From contig FN649738.1 in the NCBI GenBank assembly GCA_000310025.1, forward strand, positions 2,005,656 through 2,069,655: a stretch of 64,000 bases of DNA. The letters run 5' to 3'. Under the pieces are notes generated by a model. It did no database searches. It was given only the letters and a program-made list of their open reading frames with translations, and had not been told where the DNA came from. Of this stretch, positions 7,364-28,570 are shown piece by piece (position 1 is the first letter of the stretch; every line of letters begins with the position of its first letter). Position numbers and translations under genes: made by a program. Source of the DNA: Ectocarpus siliculosus. Taxonomy: Eukaryota; Sar; Phaeophyceae; Ectocarpales; Ectocarpaceae.

Positions 7364-10300
7364 CTACGACTTCCGTCGCCATACCGTCCCATCCGAACAG
7401 CCCCATTGAAATTTTCGCGCGTGTTCGCGGATAAGGAAGGGCATAGAACAGCGCCGTTCAAGCTCGAAGGCATCGTCGGCTTCCATTATCGACCGAATCT
7501 GGGAGGGTAGGGAAAGAGGGGGAGGGGGGAGGAGAGAGAGGAGAGGGGAGAGTCGCTTCAGAGAACGATGGTGGTTTGCTTGGTGTTGTCACGGATCTGA
7601 ATCTTGATCGAGCAACTTGCTTGGGTGTTCGATGCAAGACCGTGATAGGCTACTGCGTTGACGTTGTGGAGCCTTTGACTGCAAGACAAGGATAAGATAG
7701 ACACACCAGGACCTTAAAACAAAAAGGCACCGACCTGGGCAGGCCTGATCCGAGAGGACCACCATTAGCACCCACACAGTTAACTCGTATCAATTGATTT
7801 TGTTAGACTCAATAGCTCACCCGGTCGAAGCTGTCGACGTACTCCCCGTCCTGCTTGTCCGCGTCCCCTCCTTCTCGAAATCCCCCCAACCACTCCTGGA
7901 CAAAGTCATGCCAGAATCGTCATTGCGCTATTATAGATACATACGTGGCCCTGGACGAACATCGTGATAAAACACTTTTCTGGCCTGTGAACCTGTGAAC
8001 AAATCACCACCCTTGGCTGCATGACAATTGCTTGGGAACCACCGAGTCTGCCCCCGTGTGCACAGCGAGAAGGGGCCACGCCGACTCAAGCTCTATCTAG
8101 TCGATTCGCTCCGACGGGTAGGTGGAGACAAGCCAAACGGACGGACAATGCGAATGAGTACGCCCCCACCACCACCCCGCCCCGGGCGATTTGCTCACAA
8201 CGGTAATGTTCCATCTACCCCACATCTAGGTTCTGCGGGTTTGGGACAAACAACGCGTTCGTTGGGGGCACAAACGGTCCGCGAGTATCACCGGCGTTTG
8301 TCCCATCTTACCGACGTGGGCGTGTACTCCTTGAGCCACGAGTAGGGTGATATCAAAACTGCCACCCCCCCTGGCTTGACCAGGGCGGGAAGGTCTTCCA
8401 GAAATGATCGAGGCTTCGGCAACCTGAGGCATTGTACCAGTGCACCCAACATCAGGATTAGGTAAGGCAGCATCGGGAGGAATCACGTACAAATCAAAGG
8501 GACAACGTATCTGTGTTTCCTGGAATGAGAATAACGCACGAAGTCTACTGTATGCCCCCCCTGCCAAGTGTAGCCATGTCCGCCAAACGTGAAACGTTTG
8601 GGTAGCCGGGATACCTAATCAACCCATGGCACTTCTGCCCCCGAAAAAAATCACAACCACCACCAACGAAAAGCCGCCAGGAACCACAATTACATGGAAA
8701 TAAATCCATGGATGACGCACCGGCAGAGCAGGTTACTAGCGAGCACGGCGTCGAAAGACCCCAGTGCTTTCACGTCCAGCGAACAAGCGTCTCCCTGGGA
8801 AAACCTGGCTCGTGAAGGAACCGTTCCCTCCGGCAGAAATGCCTCCCTTCGAAAGACCGCCGACCCTTGCTCCAAGTACTCGTACTGTGTTCTGAACGAG
8901 GATCATTCGTTGGTTGTTGATGCGCACGGCGTGGGCCGGGGGCGGGGGGGGGAGAACTTGGCGACAGTGCCAGTTGCCAGCACAATACTGTTTATTATGG
9001 CGACAGTCCCTCCATTTTTCATGGTGAGACGTGTACTACACTCTTCAGTGTATGTAGAGTACTACACTTTTCAGTGTATTTTTTCGTACAACTACAACCA
9101 TCCAGGGTCACGCAGAAGGGGGGTAAACACCAAAGCTTTTTTCTTCTTTATTTTTATTCTCGTGCCCCACCTTTCTCCTGCGGTGCGTGCTGATCTGTAC
9201 TTTTATCGCGAGAAGGGTCCAGCCGTCTCTCTCCCTCGTCAACGGCGCTAACGTCGAAGTTTGGTACTCACGAGAGCTTTTCAGCTATTTTTCGCTTTCA
9301 CCTTGTTTCACCCGCAAGTTTTGTAAATTTTTCACCCCATGGGGATTCGAATTCACAACGTTTGCGACTAGCGGTTTCAGGATACCACTAGACCACCGGA
9401 GTCTACGAGTAAATAGGGAATCATGCTCGAAACACCTACCATTTCGGTGAAACAGAATGCTCCGTTTACTCTAGTTATTGTTTACCTTCCCTCCACTCTC
9501 ATCCGTTCGGCGGCCTCTACGAAACTGGCCGAAAAATCCACGCCCACGACCTGTGACGTCGGAAAATAATAAGGGCAGGGACAGAGGGGGCGTCCAACTA
9601 TAATCCCACGGGGTGATCGTACAAAGTTTTTTTTTTGGGAACAACAAGTGATCGCACGAATGAATGCTGCATCAACACGACGAAGATGGTGGTAATGGAT
9701 GGCTTTTGCATCGTGTCCAGTCGTGCCTCCCGAAGGAAAGGAGCAGCTCACGAGGCAGGCACGTGGAGAGCCACGCACAACACCTCCACGAACGGAAGTT
9801 GGGCGGAAAAGAAACATTCCCGCTTGGGCTCGTGGACAAGCATTGGTTTATGCGCATGGGCACACCAAGAACCAAAACCAGCAGCGGCAGCGGCAGCAGC
9901 AAAACGACGCTCCGGTTGAAAAAACAGAGTATCATGCAACACATGTGACATCCGTTCCATGTTTTTCAGCACAATGGCAGTCCAATAACGGCAACGAAAC
10001 CCGTTGCAGCCGCTTAGCCACCCGCCTTCTCGAACCTACTCTACTCTAACCCGCTCACCGTCCGTCCCCTACCTCGTCAAATGCCCGTGTCAGCTCGAAC
10101 GTGATCCCTCCCACGGCACACCCGACATCTAGCGCGCGGAGGGGGCGCCTGTTTGACCTTCCGGCCTTATACGTTTGCCCTTCGCCTCCCTCGCCAGTTA
10201 GCTGGTCTTTCTCTCTCTCCGGCGACGACGACAGAGGCAGTGGTGGCGATGTCTCCGTAGTCACGAGCGCCTCGGCACAAAGGCTTGCGCATCGCTTCGG

Positions 10301-10743
10301 AAAACCCAACGCGTCGGCCGGCCCGCAGTCATGAGGAAGGACTTCATCGGTGCTTGAGCGAACAAACGACATCAGGAAACCGAACGAAAGGAGGGGTGCA
10401 CAGCCGGGGGGGGGGGAGGGGGGTTGAAAAATACTCTCAACTATCGCAAGGTTTCACCTCAGCAATTGTCAAGTACTAGTCTACATATGTAGCATCTTGC
10501 TGTGTTACAGGGGGGTCCTACAATAACGCCACTTGCAGCTGTACCGACGTGCGGCATACTGTCAGCTAGGCACAACGTTTAACCTTGCCATGGGCCAGTG
10601 GGCCTCAGCTTGCCGCCTCACCTTCCAAAGTGAAATTGCAGGTATTCGTGGACCGCCCGCTCCCCCTCGTACACCACAGAACCGCTCGCCGCTGTGCTTC
10701 TCGCCGCATCAACGAAGGCGTTGCTGTTGGTGGTCGTCGACAT
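7364..10743 (-). CDS. 4-mercaptohistidine N1-methyltransferase (OvoA C-terminal type), stand-alone
   Basis: SAM-dependent methyltransferase related to the C-terminal domain of OvoA, which N-methylates the imidazole of 4-mercaptohistidine to give ovothiol A. Exons, in transcription order, are 10743-10622, 10352-10073, 9550-9486, 8891-8721, 8423-8312, 7895-7821 and 7498-7364. All have GT-AG borders and matching phases, giving 960 nt and 319 residues. Visible family blocks are VYEGERAVHEYLQFHFG (about 24-40), EVLPHDCGPADALGFPKRC (about 44-62), SAM motif I LDVGCAVGG (115-123), GVDFSASF (about 136-143), ARFSQGDACSLD, a FDAVLASNLLCRLP block, PGGVAVLISPYSWLKEYTP, EWLGGF, and the C-terminal MPFLIREHARKFQW with GTVWRRKS and a stop at 7364. 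The ATG at 10743 opens a 23-residue Ser/Thr/Ala-rich lead before the domain. There is no DinB-like or FGE-sulfatase-like sulfoxide synthase domain, and none is visible upstream before the next gene. A roughly 40-residue low-complexity insert precedes motif I. The family call is firm. Substrate specificity is inferred from the family. Confidence 0.94.
9131..9405 (-). repeat. tRNA-derived SINE (copy 1)
   Basis: Lies in an intron of the methyltransferase gene. Read on the - strand from about 9403, a tRNA-like head has an A-box-like TGGTCTAGTGGTA and a B-box-like GAATTCGAATCCC. A body follows, then an A-rich tail (T-rich on + at 9136-9160). The body words near TATCGCGAGAAGG recur in the copy at 12917-13235. 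Confidence 0.6.
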
Positions 10744-11590: not shown

Positions 11591-12469
11591 TGGTGGCTCA
11601 TGTTAGCGTATGGCTTAGACCAAAGCACGAACGGTGTTCATGTGGAGCGCTCACTCGTTGGTATAGAACAGGATATAGGGCGTGAAGAAATTGATGACAC
11701 TCGCTGGTAATCAATGAGATCAGCCAAGAGCGGGGACGCATGACAGGCGTTCCCGGGGATGGGAAAGTCGCTGCGTAAATACGTAAATAACACACATGTG
11801 GAGGTCAGGATATGGAGATTCAGGGAGCACAGATACACGTACATGAAGAGTAGGATCTGAGAGGATATGTGATAATAGATTACCGTTCTTCGAGGGTCTA
11901 TGACTCTTACGATTCCCAACGGCTGCGAAGAGTTGATGAATCTTTAGGAGAATGGGATAAGGGTCCACGAAGGCTCGCCCACTCTCCTCGCCACCCTAGC
12001 TTGACTGAGTCGCTCGGTCACGCTTGGCATTCCTCGCATTCCTCGCTACATTGCACCAAAGGAAATACCCAACCTCCGGTGGCAGGACATAGCCACCACA
12101 CTCCCGGACTCTCTGCTCAGCCAGAGTAGAGAGCTTCCATACACAACAGTATTCAAAAGCGACATCGGGTTTAGTTCACATTTCCATTTAGTGTTTATTT
12201 CCAGAAGCCTACTTTTTGCTTCGCAAACACCGCATTGGTTCAAGCAACGCGAAGCAGTAGACTAACCCTGTGGGTGGAGTCTGAGAGTCTCCGGCGGATC
12301 GCTTCCGAGAGGCCTTGTTGTAAGTATTAATATCTGTAACTACGAGTCACAGCAGTACAACGGAAATGTAACAACAGGACCATGAGTGGCAACAATTTCT
12401 TGCTTCACTAATCCCTACCTACAGTGCAAAGGATGCACACCCTGTACAACTACTTTAGTTGGTAGTTGT

Positions 12470-12916
12470 TTGCCAGACAACTACTCTTCCAGGAAGGTGC
12501 GCACCTAGTTGCCTGCAGACACCTACTGGTTCAGATTTGTGCGAACCTAGTTGCCTGCAGACAACTATTCTTCCAGGAGGGTGCGCACCTAGTTGCCTGC
12601 AGACACCTACTGGGTCAGATTTGTGCGCACCTAGTTGCCTGCAGACACCTACTCTTCCAGGAGGGTGCGCACCTAGTTGCCTGCAGACAACTACTCTTCC
12701 AGGAGCGTGCGCACCTAGTTGCCTGCAGACAACTACTCTTCCAGGAGGGTGCACACCTAGTTGCCTGCAGACACCTACTGGTTCAGAATCGTGCGCACCT
12801 AGTTGCCTGTAGATGACTACTCTTCCAGGAGTGTGCGCACCTAGTTGCCTGTAGATGACTACTTTTCCGGGAGCGTGCGCACCTAGTTGCCTGTAGATGA
12901 CTACGCTTCCAGGAGT
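12470..12916. repeat. 42-bp minisatellite, main block
   Basis: About ten tandem units of 42 bp. The core is GCGCACCTAGTTGCCTGCAG followed by ACAACTACTCTTCCAGGAGG, with unit variants reading CACCTACTGGTTCAGATTTG or GTAGATGACTAC. The period is a multiple of three, so several frames stay open and read as 14-residue repeats such as CAPSCLQT. These frames are a by-product of the repeat, not evidence for a protein. Confidence 0.93.
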
Positions 12917-13235
12917 TTTTTTTTTTTTTTTCTCCCATCATTGGATTCTGTCGTCTGCCCCTCTGGCCCCTATTCTCCACTTCTACTAGCTAGACGACCG
13001 GGGTCACATGGGAGGGGGGGGTTGGACCCCCTCGTGCGGTTCCTGCCTGAGATATTTGTATCGCGAGAAGGTACAGCAATCCATTCCCTCCCGACCTTTG
13101 AAGTGTGTACGAACAACGAGCTTCGCAGCGCGTCGCTTCCAACTTAGACCAGGATTTCTTTAGTGAGACAAAATCTCACTTTGCCGGGACTCGAACTCAT
13201 GACTAACCCTAACCCACTAGACCACCGGGGCGACC
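12917..13235 (-). repeat. tRNA-derived SINE (copy 2) inserted in the minisatellite
   Basis: On the - strand it starts near 13235 with a tRNA-like head: A-box-like TGGTCTAGTGGGTTAGG and B-box-like GAGTTCGAGTCCC at about 13184-13197. It ends in a poly-A tail, seen as 15 T on + from 12917. The minisatellite unit breaks at AGGAG on the left and resumes at AGGAATGTG on the right, which is consistent with insertion and a short target duplication. Confidence 0.8.
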
Positions 13236-13400
13236 GGTCTAGGAATGTGTGAACCTAGTTGCCTGTAGATGACTACTCTTTCAGGAGCGTGCGCACCTTG
13301 TTGCCTGTAGTTGACTACTCTTCCAGGAGCGTGCGCACCTAGTTGCCTGTAGTGACTACTCTTCCAGGAGTGCGCGCAACTATTTGTGTTTACGAACAAC
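13236..13400. repeat. 42-bp minisatellite, right-hand remnant
   Basis: Three to four degenerate units of the same 42-bp repeat continue after the SINE (core CTAGTTGCCTGTAG). They end near 13400 in a diverged segment that recalls the left boundary at 12455-12485 (GTAGTTGT..GCCAGACAA against GTAGTTGTCTGGCAAACAA). Confidence 0.85.
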
Positions 13401-14019
13401 TAGCCGGTAGTTGTCTGGCAAACAAATAACTTAGTTAGTTTTAGTAAAGTTGTACAGGGTGTGAAAGGATGCCCTCATTACATGCATATGCTACAAGCGA
13501 CATCGCGCATTGCAGCAGTCCCTTCAATCAATAAGAGCAGCATCAAAGATTTATTCGTCCTTCTCATCTTCACATACCGATTAGAGACAGTTGGCCAACC
13601 GGCACAAGGAGTAGCCCTAGCAGCACCTCGGGAAAAGATGATAGCACGCACGCGGTTCATGACTTGGGCACCTCTGCCGTGCATGCTGCACAGCACATAG
13701 CACAGTCTCAGCCTGCAGTGGTGCACAGGATCACGAGGATACGTCGCGAGCGGCTCCGTGGATCAGCACGCGGTACCCCCATTCGTGTATGTATCCCGGC
13801 TACGTTGCCCCCCGGTCTTCCCTCCCTCTGGTCTGTGCCCTCTGGTCGATCGACACAGCATCTGAGGGTGTGGATAACACGCAGAGATAGGGAGAGAGAG
13901 GGAGGGCGCAGGTCGGCGTGTAGTATCTCACTGCCGTTGCGTCGGTTAGCGTGGTAATAGAAGGTGGTATTAGCGTCAGCGCACAGGAGAGGAAGAGAGT
14001 TCGTGGACCTCAAATACCT

Positions 14020-17000
14020 ATGGAGCCTCCCCAACAGCAAGGGGAGCGAGCTCTGTACATCCAGAAGGACGGCGCAATCAACCCAAGCAGCGCCAGCGGT
14101 AACCCTAACGGTGATTTCAATATGTCTGCCGACATTGTCGGTAGTGGCAGCGGCGGTGGCGCTGATGCAAGCAACGGCGTTTCCGACCTTGCTGGATTAA
14201 CAGCGGCAAAGATCGGGGGGAAGCCTCCGAGTGAGGCAGACAAGAAGGCAGCACCGAGGTGGGGATGATGATGGTGTAGCAGTTTGTTGTAGGTCGGCTC
14301 TGACGCTTCGTGGGTGTACGGGGGCATTTTGCTTGCGCTGATGTGGGTAACAGTAAGTGGGTGGTGTTTAGAAAATATCCAGTAGACATTTTTGTCTGCG
14401 ACACAGCAAACAGCATCTGAAGACAGGGCGCGCTTTTTCGAACAAGCACACCTATTGCTGTCGCCTCTGCCTACACTACGTACGGTTGCCGGCTGACGGC
14501 CTGCTTCGCGGTGACTCTTGCTCCCACACCACTGCAAGCAGCCATCTACCCCCTCCTCGGGAGCAACCGTTTCCTCAGAGCAGAGTGTCCATGTCGCGTT
14601 GGCACAGCATGATTAGGTTGTGATGCGCCGCTCTTCAGTATGCTTACGTATGGTACGTCTTTCCAGCAACCCAAGTAACATGTCGACATGTCGACCCCGG
14701 GAACCTGGATACGCTGTCCCCAAGTGTGGAGAACTCGCCGCTCCTGATCGAGAGGACTACATAAGTCCAACACGACCCTGGATACAGAAAGAGTTGACAC
14801 GATCACCGGAGCACACGCTTGCCTCCGAAGAATGTAGTGGTAGACAGAATGTAGTGGTAGACTGGGTATGCTTTCGTGGCTTTCATGACATGCTTCAACC
14901 CGGCGGACTTGGTTTCGTCTCGTGTATGTTGGCGTGGCCTCCGGCAGATCTGGGGGACCTGCGGCGGGCAAGCCAGGCAAAGACGGCAAGGGTACCAGCG
15001 GTAAGAAGAAGAAGACGACCGAGAACGGAGAGCGGAAGAAGAGCAAGGTAAAGTGGGTCGTGTTCGCGGCGGTCGCCACCTCGTTGGACGTGTCTTGCGG
15101 AATGCCATGATGGTGGCGGCTTTGTCTCTCGCGCCTTCTTCCGATCTTACACGCCAGTTGTGATCGGTTGACCACCGCACTTGCCAGCTATACTGGCTCC
15201 AACCTTCACAGGGAAAGGTGAATGAAACAGGGCGACGTTGTCGAAGCGAGAAAACTTCACACAACATAACACACCTTCCCAAGTCCAGATCACACCTACC
15301 ATCGAGAGAAACCGTCGAGGGCGTGAGGGTCTACTGCTGTGTGCGTTATCAGGATAGTTCCCCGTAATTGGTTCAGGTTGTACTTGCGCCGCGCTACTGA
15401 CTGTCTTCGCAATAGCCGTGCCCTGCCGGCTGTTGCTGCTGTCGCTATTGCCCTCGCTGGGCATGACCGAACATGGTCGCAACGTACTGGCTGGCGGATC
15501 TGAGCAGACTTGCAAACACGGGCCCGTAAAGAGCTCGCTTGCCTGCTGATCTCACAACTGCGCCATTTAACGCGGCACGAAGCGTTTGCCACGCCAGAAA
15601 CCGTGCGCTGCCACTGTACGCCTGACCCCATAACCGAGGCCCCTCATCTAATTGCCTCATCCACCAACCCTGAAGTCTCTCTGCTCCCGGGAATACTGTC
15701 TCATCATTCGGTGAGCAGAAGTCCAAGAAGAGCGGCAAGCATGGGGAGGCATCGGCAGACGGGGCAGCGACGGGAGCGACGCCAGGGAGCGATAAGACCA
15801 CCAAGGGCAAAACCGTAGCTAGCAAAACGGGCAGCAAGACCAAGGGTGCGGTTAAGAAGGTCGCTGCGGCAAGCGCTACCAAGAAGAAGGAAGGAACCAC
15901 CACGTCGAGGTGCGCGAACGCCGGCTCGTTTGCGAGAGTTGTCTGCGTGTGTTTGCGAACTTGTTTGATTCGTTCTGCAGGCCTGTGGCGTTGCCAATGC
16001 TGAAGCATCTCGTGTGTCATATTTCGGCTCGATTACTTCCCTTCGAGGGTGCTCTGGGATGGGAGAGCGGCCATGTGGCCTTCAACAGCCACAACGCGTG
16101 CAATAGAGCAAGCTCAACTCTTTTTTTGGAAATTCTTGTTTGATACTGTACATGTCCTATCGTGGCTTTCCCACGCATCATGTTCTGTGGGCATACGTGA
16201 TTGGACCATGCCGCCTCGCCGTGACTTAGCCCCAAGGCCGATTGATTGATTGATCTTTGTGTTCGTGACGACACCGCTGCTGTTGCTATTTGCAGCGGGA
16301 ACAAGAGCAAGGACCGCGGCCGGAGTGACAGAGATAGTCGAAGCCCCAGCTGGAGCAGCCGGAGCTGGAGCAGTCGCAGCCGCAGCAGAAGCTGGAGCAG
16401 CCGAAGCAGCAGCAGGGGGAGGAGGGACAGCCGGTCGAGGAGCAGCAGCAGGCGGAGAAGGGATAGCCGTTCGAGGAGCAGAGAACACAGCCGCTGGCAC
16501 GGATCCTCTTATCGAGGTAGTGGCGGCGTCCGTGGCTACTCAAGAGCGCCCCGCGAGCGTTCCTGGGATCGGTTTGGGAATCGGTCCAGGGACCAAGAGC
16601 GAGGCCGACCGCAGCGCGATCAGGAGAGGGACCGGGGCGACGGGCGACGGGGCTATCGCAGGGAAAGCGATCCTCCCTCTGGCAACAGAGGTCGAGACCG
16701 TGATCGAGATCGTGATCGAGATCGAGACCTGCCGAGAGGGAGAGATCGGGAGGTTGTCGGCCGGGGAAGAGGGGAGCGAGAGGAAACGAGGGATAAGGGA
16801 CGCAGGGACGATGCCGACTCAAGGGGCCCTGTTAGCGACAGAGACTATCGCGGCGGAGACAGAAAGGAAGCTCGTAGCGGTAAGAATGAGCCTCGCAGCG
16901 GAAACGGCAAGGAACAGGCCCAACGCGATGGCAACGTGAAACCTCAGGGCGGCAGGGGGGACCCCAACGACGATAAGAAGGAAGCTCGAGGGGACGTGAA

Positions 17001-25074: not shown

Positions 25075-27124
25075 AGGCCTTGGTTTATTTTTGGACACTG
25101 CTATGCTTTCTTCTTGTACGGGTGGGTGCTGTGGAGTAGCGCACACGCACGAGGTACTTGCCGTCCCGTGGACATTCTAATGACATGCTTTTTAGGTGTG
25201 GTGGTGGTGGTCCTACCAAACAAAGCTGTTGTGTTTGGCGTCAAGCACCGCTTCACGTCCCGCGCTGGCGGCAGTGCGTGCTGGTGCTTGAAGCAGCTGA
25301 CTTGCGTCAATCCAACATGTTTAATTGTTCTATCTCTACATGAATATGCGACAACGAGCCCTCCTCCCCGCCGCTAAATTTCCCTCACCCGCTTGCCCCG
25401 AATGTCCCCGTCCCCGTCCCCTCGCTCGATTAACGCAGAGATTGGAGGGCCCGATTTTCATCCCTGCACCTCCAGAGGCTACACCTGTGTCTTTGATGTT
25501 GGGGGACATCTCCGTTGGGCTTCCCCTCAATGTTTTATCGGCGCCTGAAACGTACCACTAGTCCTGAGTTCTCACATCAATCGATTCTCCTGCTGGAGTT
25601 GCTACGGGGGTGAAAGCACTAGCCATCGCACCGTGGGTTTGAAAGGTTACACCCCGTAAAGGGGGGTAGGTGCTGTGTTTTCAGCGGGTTGTAGGGCACC
25701 CCTCCTGTGCTGTTATTGTTTCCATGGTATATATTAAGTTCTTCATGAACGGGTGTTTCGTATACAAGTACAAGGTAGTTTTACATTTCTTTTTTCTGGG
25801 AGTGAGTCGGATTTGGAGAATGTTCTCCGACCGGCCAAAAATAATCAGCATGTGTTGGTTTTGGGAGGAAGGTGTTTGATATTTGTCTGGTGTGGTTGCA
25901 GGCGTGAAGTGTAGCTGGCTTCTCTGGTGGTGGCAGGTACAGGGTGCAGGTCAATGTTTTAGTGTTTGGGCGAAGCGTTTTTATCGAATCACAAGAAAAC
26001 TTGATGTGTTATTTTTGTTGGAAGAAACCAGGATCATGGCACCGCTCCGACCTGAATCTTTTCGGTTTGCTGTCTCACCTTTCCGGCAGTGTAAGCGGGT
26101 GCTTTGCGACATTTCATTACATTGGTGTGCCTTGGTGGTGGTAAAGGGCGGGTTCTGCTGCTAAGGTACATTGAACTTCGTGCGTGAAAATAAGGGAGAG
26201 AGTGAAGGAGCATTTTGGTCGTTCGTCCGATGACGCGCGAAAAATTAGTTACTCGTTCAGATTGCCTCGTTCAAGCACGAATCAAATGATCAACATCATG
26301 TGTAAGTGTTGTTTCTCTCTGGTTTCTTTGTCCAAGCGCAGTTCCCAGCGGCAGTCGATTCTTTTCCCCGCCGAAACATGAAGGCAAGATCGTCGAGAGT
26401 AAGAAACCGCAGACAAGCCAAGAGCTCCCGACAAACGCGATGCCACCCTCGAAACTGCCACAGGTCCAACCAAGTGACGAAGTATTCCTCTGCGACGATC
26501 ACGCGCTTCGGAATGATCGAGACAATGCGTCCGGACGTTGCAAACGTGGGCAGATATGCGGGCACGGATGTTGGTAACGTGCCCCAAACCGGTTGTCAGT
26601 CCAGGGAGGTCTCCCCACTCAGAAATCGTGTGCCGCACCTTGACTTAGACGAGAATGTTTAGTCGAAATGCAACAACAGATCACGTCGCGATTTGTTTTT
26701 TTGGTCTTCACTTCAAATCAGGGCTCACAGCATATATTTGTGCCGTTTACTCCAACCCTTGGTCACACAGAAGGGTTCCTCTCCCTGAGGACCCCTACCC
26801 ACCCATCCTGTGGTGCTTTGCCTTCGATTTCTAGTGTGAGAAGAATGCAGCAACTATCTTCCCTCCGTGTACACACGAACTATTTGAAGCGCTTTCCACC
26901 CGGTCCATGATCAGCTTGAAATTCCCAAGTACGAGAATCAAACATCCTGCGTCTCAGGATGGATGGATGTATTATTAATGTGCTTGCCTATGTTTCATGA
27001 TCGATCGTGAACTCGTGCAGGTTAAAACGAATGCGGTCATGGGTGCTCTCCAATGCAAGCTCTAGGGTGGGTTTCGCCCTCTCGCGAGCAACTACAGCAG
27101 CAGAATCTTTAGGCATCGCTCCTT
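25075..27124. other. Intergenic or intronic stretch without a supported gene
   Basis: Contains open frames on both strands at about 26282-26662, but they overlap one another and show no family match or convincing splice context. A SINE copy lies at 26690-26960. The region could hold 3' exons of the SR/RGG gene if the donor at 25014 is used. Confidence 0.45.
26690..26960 (-). repeat. tRNA-derived SINE (copy 3), head diverged
   Basis: The body from about 26729 to 26900 (TTGTGCCGTTTACTCCAACC, then TGGTCACACAGAAGGG, CTCTCCCTGAGGACCCCTAC and GTGTACACACGAACTA) closely matches the copy at 48085-48415. The tRNA-like head at 26925-26960 is degenerate. A T-rich run (an A tail on the - strand) lies near 26693-26703. 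Confidence 0.75.
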
Positions 27125-28221: not shown

Positions 28222-28570
28222 CTAGCGCCACCACCGCTCGCTGCTGCTGCCACCCGAATGCCCGTGAGCCTTCTCCCACCTTTCGCGCTTGTTCTTGAGA
28301 ACGCTGTGAGCCAACTCGAAGGCTTTTGAGGTTACACTTTCTTCGGTATTCTCAACATAGACCTGGTATTTGTTCGAAGGCCTATTGGGGTTCTTTTTGT
28401 CGACGAGAGTAGTGGTCAACAGCACCTCTCCGCTACCCCTTGTTCAGTCTCCACTCGTGCCGTAATGTATGACATGTTTCTCCTTTCCTAGCCAAAGTAT
28501 GCGTTCGCACTTGCCCGGCTTTGACACTGGTGCCGCTGCCCCAGCCCCAGCTGCACTCATGTTTGACACC
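28222..28570 (-). pseudogene. Interrupted reading frame, possible mobile-element or decayed gene
   Basis: The frame starting at the ATG complement at 28570 (MSAAGAGAAAPVSKPGKCER onward) runs about 38 codons to a TGA at 28444-28446. The same frame then continues without shift through six more codons and 67 further residues (VDKKNPNRPSNKYQVYVENT and on to LKNKRERWEKAHGH) to a stop at 28222. Both halves look like protein, so a single premature stop is the simplest reading. The family is not recognised. A donor-like CG|GTGGTG lies near the 3' end, so the second half may have spliced onward to 27538. Confidence 0.4.

Follow-up and report, generated by a model that had tools for sequence, protein, structure and literature searches.

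What would an OvoA-type methyltransferase do when it is encoded apart from a sulfoxide synthase? This question is raised by a gene in the 64,000-nucleotide stretch of DNA analyzed here (hereafter the window). An earlier note described it as a complete OvoA C-terminal domain lacking its synthase, and proposed either that the synthase is encoded elsewhere in a split pathway or that the enzyme acts on another thiol-imidazole, such as an intermediate of the ergothioneine pathway. We examined the gene model, searched the source genome for a synthase and compared the predicted protein with solved enzymes and with bacterial relatives.

A free-standing methyltransferase gene

The ovothiol-methyltransferase-type gene is predicted to lie on the minus strand (window 10743-7364) and to consist of seven exons, all with AG/GT borders, that join in a single frame encoding 319 amino acids and a stop codon. 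Based on the splice model, its translation and comparison of signature and motif residues, exon 1 (10622-10743) carries the ATG and residues Y25, Y34 and H38 of the VYEGERAVHEYLQFHFG block, and exon 2 (10073-10352) holds SAM motif I (RALDVGCAVG), preceded by a low-complexity stretch at approximately residues 72-110. Exon 3 (9486-9550) encodes VVGVDFSASF with D139 and S141, and exon 4 (8721-8891) holds QGDAC and, further on, ASNLLC with N209 and L210. An intron divides the R213 codon after its second base, so that its third base belongs to exon 5 (8312-8423), which also encodes SPYSW with P239 and W242. Exon 6 (7821-7895) encodes EWLGGF, and exon 7 (7364-7498) carries PFLIREHARKFQ and ends with TVWRRKS and the stop codon. 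The frame of exon 1 stays open for 25 codons 5' of the start, to 10818, and contains no ATG before that at 10743.

The predicted protein matches the NCBIfam model TIGR04345 (ovoA_Cterm, the 4-mercaptohistidine N1-methyltransferase domain) at 197.7 bits (E 2.1e-58), above the curated cut-off of 170 bits, and generic methyltransferase Pfam models match it as well. Both the VYEGERAV-HEYLQFHFG and the GTVWRRKS blocks are present, in agreement with the earlier claims of a complete domain in a seven-exon gene with its own ATG. A tblastn search of the window with the synthase of contig C66 (described below) as query detected no synthase exon (best match 19.6 bits, E 9.9); as a positive control, the procedure recovered all seven methyltransferase exons. 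The gene model has no DinB plus FGE sulfoxide synthase on the same polypeptide, the combination that characterizes a bifunctional OvoA. The divergent neighbor expected 3.3 kb upstream is a putative gene, seen as a plus-strand open frame at 13924-14268 with an ATG at 14020. Two blocks of a 42-bp minisatellite (12432-13394) lie between it and the methyltransferase gene. Searches of the window with ARAGORN and for tRNA-like patterns found no tRNA. On the predicted splice model, then, a complete free-standing gene for an OvoA-type methyltransferase (OvoM-like) is present in the window.

Similarity to solved enzymes

The best-scoring solved relatives among PDB sequences are OvsM (169 bits), OvoA (159 bits) and OvoM (123 bits). 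OvsM, a 5-selenohistidine N-methyltransferase (PDB 9bxh, 267 aa), is a separate chain like the window protein, and its signature residues agree with those of the window protein throughout the segment compared, except for a leucine in place of W242. OvoM, a 5-thiohistidine N-methyltransferase (PDB 9bxl, 273 aa), is 37% identical to the window protein over 208 aa and agrees with it at every signature residue in the segment compared; it too is a separate chain, which does not imply a separate gene in nature. The C-terminal (OvoC) domain of a fused OvoA (PDB 8khq) is 44% identical over 207 aa, again with the same signature residues in the segment compared, but it lies within a 728-aa synthase-containing chain whereas its counterpart in the window is a separate seven-exon gene.

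OvsM is named for ovoselenol, to which the selenosugar synthase SenB is linked. In the source genome the best SenB match reached just 16.3 bits (E 0.3), although failure to match does not establish absence.

An OvoA gene elsewhere in the genome

The earlier note suggested searching the genome for a separate synthase. We carried out this search with the OvoA synthase model TIGR04344 in the source genome (189 Mb in 492 contigs, the window being on contig C13). Its intron-rich genes are those of a eukaryote, presumably a brown alga. Seven exon matches were found, all on the minus strand of contig C66 (29267-35857) and none on C13. They cover positions 15-274, 277-319, 346-380 and 395-444 of the 444-position profile, as one gene; the 346-380 match holds one TGA, which we read as sequence past the end of an exon. 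The translation contains MEHERIHVE, which fits the HX3HXE iron motif (PMC4768315).

Downstream of the synthase exons and on the same strand, C66 also matches the methyltransferase model (25248-27021). The last synthase exon and the five exons that follow it (29407-29218, 28273-28078, 27773-27658, 27023-26823, 26264-26065 and 25385-25242) are predicted to join in one frame that terminates with ATVWRRD and a stop codon. The tract upstream of the acceptor at 28273 looks weak, and this acceptor was chosen because it keeps the frame. Thus, C66 apparently carries a full-length OvoA, with synthase exons followed by an in-frame methyltransferase domain. The idea of a genome without a synthase was accordingly abandoned. 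The split-pathway proposal was borne out insofar as a synthase does exist elsewhere, but a simple split does not describe the pathway: this synthase is followed in frame by a strongly diverged methyltransferase domain of its own.

Since the window and C66 share dispersed repeats, one of them 97.7% identical over 221 bp, and have a similar G+C content (54.4% and 55.5%, respectively), they very probably come from the same organism. Elsewhere in the genome, the EgtB model gave one match, the size of an exon, on contig C458 (G000:C458:151318-151449; 39.6 bits), covering profile positions 277-318 only. An EgtD-type histidine methyltransferase gave no match in the source genome at E 10, which does not imply absence since the control was positive in just 1 of 14 genomes; a role in the ergothioneine pathway, the second of the earlier proposals, is not favored.

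Differences between the two methyltransferases

The domain fused to the C66 synthase belongs to the same family as the window protein. It scores 143.5 bits against TIGR04345, below the 170-bit cut-off, and shares only 31% identity with the window protein over the aligned segment. At 13 family-conserved sites, gaps not being counted, the window protein has no changes and the C66 domain has 12, a count that is selected because the sites were picked after an alignment had shown C66 to differ. Among all 99 rows of the comparison, the window and C66 included, 92 have no change and five have one, the exceptions being a bacterial fused OvoA (locus L120) with eight and C66 with 12; leaving aside the window's own row, 96 of 98 change at no or one site. 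This selection affects the C66 count more than it does the finding that the window protein keeps residues invariant among the solved enzymes.

The residues changed in the C66 domain include N209, R213, P239, R299, E300 and K304 (window numbering), which, judging from conservation, probably line the substrate pocket. The SAM motif is largely kept, in the altered form EVGCGAGG, and the fused domain may still be active despite its altered residues.

Stand-alone relatives in bacteria

A first search of genome contigs with the window protein alone gave no relatives. We subsequently considered the best 80 of at least 392 relatives from a search of genome contigs, comprising 69 stand-alone frames and 11 fused OvoA. 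Sixty-five of the 69 stand-alone loci come from records titled as Verrucomicrobiota lines; the remaining four loci are L030 (Blastochloris), L058 (Kiritimatiellales), L091 (Chloroflexi) and L093. The frames are mostly about 240-310 aa. Like the window protein, the TIGR04345-type proteins of Verrucomicrobiota (within L029-L106) lack a fused synthase, and they are at most 50% identical to it. Stand-alone forms of this methyltransferase are therefore not new, as the solved separate chains also attest, and the free-standing form that the earlier note took as a departure is not exceptional.

The bacterial genomes differ from the source genome in their synthase content. A synthase over the cut-off was found in only 2 of 45 genomes with stand-alone relatives, compared with four of four fused controls. 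In the other 43, matches reached 57 bits at most and fell on the FGE-sulfatase portion of the model. With the EgtB model, searched at E 1e-12 in these 49 genomes, the DinB part was matched only in the six OvoA genes. We also drew 194 genomes from the phylum Verrucomicrobiota, that of genome G012 (locus L040), which is included in the draw and is at least one genome shared with the set of 45. Using thresholds of E 1e-30 for the methyltransferase and E 1e-40 for the synthase, 35 carried the methyltransferase (25 of them over the cut-off) and seven the synthase, all seven among these 35, which leaves 28 carriers with the methyltransferase alone. In our judgement this is too many for assembly gaps alone, genome completeness not being stated.

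Synthase and separate methyltransferase do co-occur in some bacteria. Genome G510 has a 725-aa fused frame and a separate 258-aa methyltransferase frame, and the two exceptional genomes among the 45, G031 and G044, combine their stand-alone loci (L061 and L094, respectively) with synthase frames that are 713 and 760 aa long. In genome G475 a synthase match extends over two frames of 561 and 428 aa (G475:C1:2889965-2891945), possibly a split or frameshifted gene.

Two further genes recur at the bacterial loci. A same-strand protein, mostly of 380-400 aa, is encoded in 34 of the 69 stand-alone loci (within L029-L106; for example, L088:2670-3812 and L086:2679-3833), and in 32 of the 34 its end lies no more than about 200 bp from the start of the methyltransferase. 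For the one member examined, sequence searches of Pfam, NCBIfam and PDB gave no match, and the fold predicted for it (pLDDT 93) is similar to that of the M29 aminopeptidases PepS and AmpT (Foldseek E 2e-9 to 2e-8, TM 0.41-0.51). This M29-like gene, found in about half of the bacterial loci, had no match in the source genome, where an empty search does not show absence. In 13 of the 69 loci there is also an amino acid ABC transporter set (for example, L086:4722-7194), downstream of the methyltransferase where coordinates are given; the binding protein was assigned by profile (SBP_bac_3), and the permease and ATPase were named by eye.

Origin of the window gene

Among the best 80 of at least 392 relatives, the closest matches to the window protein are stand-alone frames (48-50% identity), compared with 45% for the best fused OvoA. 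The best seven rows for the C66 domain, among the rows compared, are fused OvoA of Planctomycetota and Rhodocyclales type (34-38%). With different best relatives and 31% identity between them, a recent copying of the C66 domain to give the window gene is not favored, and the two are likely of separate origin. The C66 domain contains four introns, and by hand comparison none of them coincides exactly in position with an intron of the window gene; one pair lies only about 5 nt apart and possibly represents a shared old intron.

Phylogenetic trees placed the window protein inconsistently. In an 85-row tree it pairs with L030 (bootstrap 99, not settled; SH-aLRT 54), whereas in a 64-row tree, built from 40 of the 69 stand-alone loci, 6 of the 11 fused loci and 14 of 16 further loci, it groups with L044 and L071 (SH-aLRT 88). 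Left out of the latter were L124 (a 486-aa frame in which no methyltransferase was seen), L123 (the same gene as L060) and C66, which has a very long branch. The nearest rows by path are stand-alone in both trees, and no supported branch holds the window protein. Since trees that force it to group with mainstream OvoA outscored the quick free tree (p-AU 0.558 and 0.636), its descent from a fused OvoA is possible. A viral origin was considered and set aside: a first scan gave no relative and a second gave 15 weak matches of 25-39% identity.

Possible roles of the window enzyme

We suggest, with about an even chance of being right, that the window enzyme acts in trans on 5-thiohistidine, methylating its imidazole on behalf of the C66 OvoA, whose own domain may have decayed or changed substrate. 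The C66 OvoA would couple cysteine with histidine, 5-thiohistidine would then be freed by a beta-lyase, and the window enzyme, if expressed, would methylate N-pi of its imidazole (N1 in the older naming) in a SAM-dependent reaction, yielding ovothiol A. It is proposed for this last step because the C-terminal domain of the C66 OvoA has lost conserved residues, and may thereby have lost the reaction. One counter-case comes from the altered fused OvoA at L120 (genome G056): its methyltransferase domain is similarly changed (8 of 13 sites), and no second methyltransferase was found in the 26 kb read, about 12 kb on either side.

The bacterial stand-alone family need not act on the product of OvoA, because 28 of 35 and 43 of 45 carrier genomes are without a synthase. 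The window enzyme could belong to this family and use a different imidazole or thiol substrate, with the fused OvoA finishing ovothiol by itself. Its closer match to stand-alone proteins fits this idea, as do the restriction of EgtB-model matches in the DinB part to OvoA genes and the frequent position of the bacterial gene behind that of an M29-aminopeptidase-like protein. Because most of the bacterial relatives tested have no recognizable synthase, another substrate deserves some weight. Nonetheless, the window protein keeps all the signature residues of thiohistidine and selenohistidine methyltransferases within the solved segments compared, and none of the 69 stand-alone relatives is changed at more than one of the 13 sites, which argues for a similar substrate. 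Moreover, it is the fused C66 domain that is altered, the source genome does hold a synthase, and the M29-like partner was not matched there, uninformative as that empty search is. We therefore consider a different substrate somewhat unlikely.

It is distinctly unlikely that the window enzyme and the fused domain redundantly carry out the same imidazole methylation. The three bacterial genomes with both a synthase and a separate methyltransferase frame offer a precedent, but the fused domain has many changes and scores under the family cut-off, which speaks against it. The roles could instead be divided, with the fused domain performing the imidazole step and the window enzyme acting as the alpha-amino N-methyltransferase of ovothiol B or C. 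These methyltransferases are described as unknown or uncharacterized in passages of PMC8623360, PMC7551349 and PMC12631010, and a diatom makes ovothiol B (PMC7551349). However, such a division would need the canonical residues in the fused domain and not in the window protein, the reverse of what was found, and is thus very unlikely. Finally, the open frame upstream of the ATG might mean that the window exons form the end of a longer, unrecognized gene, or C66 might be a contaminant, since nothing besides repeats and G+C content was found to link the two contigs. Both are highly improbable given that neither the window nor C13 holds a synthase exon, that the bacterial relatives are mostly encoded as separate frames of about 240-310 aa and that C66 does share repeats with the window.

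Implications for ovothiol biosynthesis

Methylation in trans by the window enzyme might have a further consequence. Once the stand-alone enzyme had taken over imidazole N-methylation, the fused domain, its SAM motif kept, could have become an alpha-amino N-methyltransferase converting ovothiol A to B or C. We regard this as unlikely, yet the altered C66 domain is a candidate because the ovothiol B/C enzyme is still unassigned in the passages of the three papers cited above. A pairing of a stand-alone with an altered fused gene is not described in the titles and abstract openings of the part of the open-licence ovothiol literature surveyed. The source genome offers two candidates for the methyltransferase of ovothiol B and C, a canonical stand-alone enzyme and a residue-changed domain fused to OvoA. 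More broadly, our findings suggest that many bacterial proteins labeled "4-mercaptohistidine N1-methyltransferase" come from genomes in which no ovothiol synthase is recognizable, and hence that a TIGR04345 domain by itself is not sufficient grounds for inferring ovothiol production.
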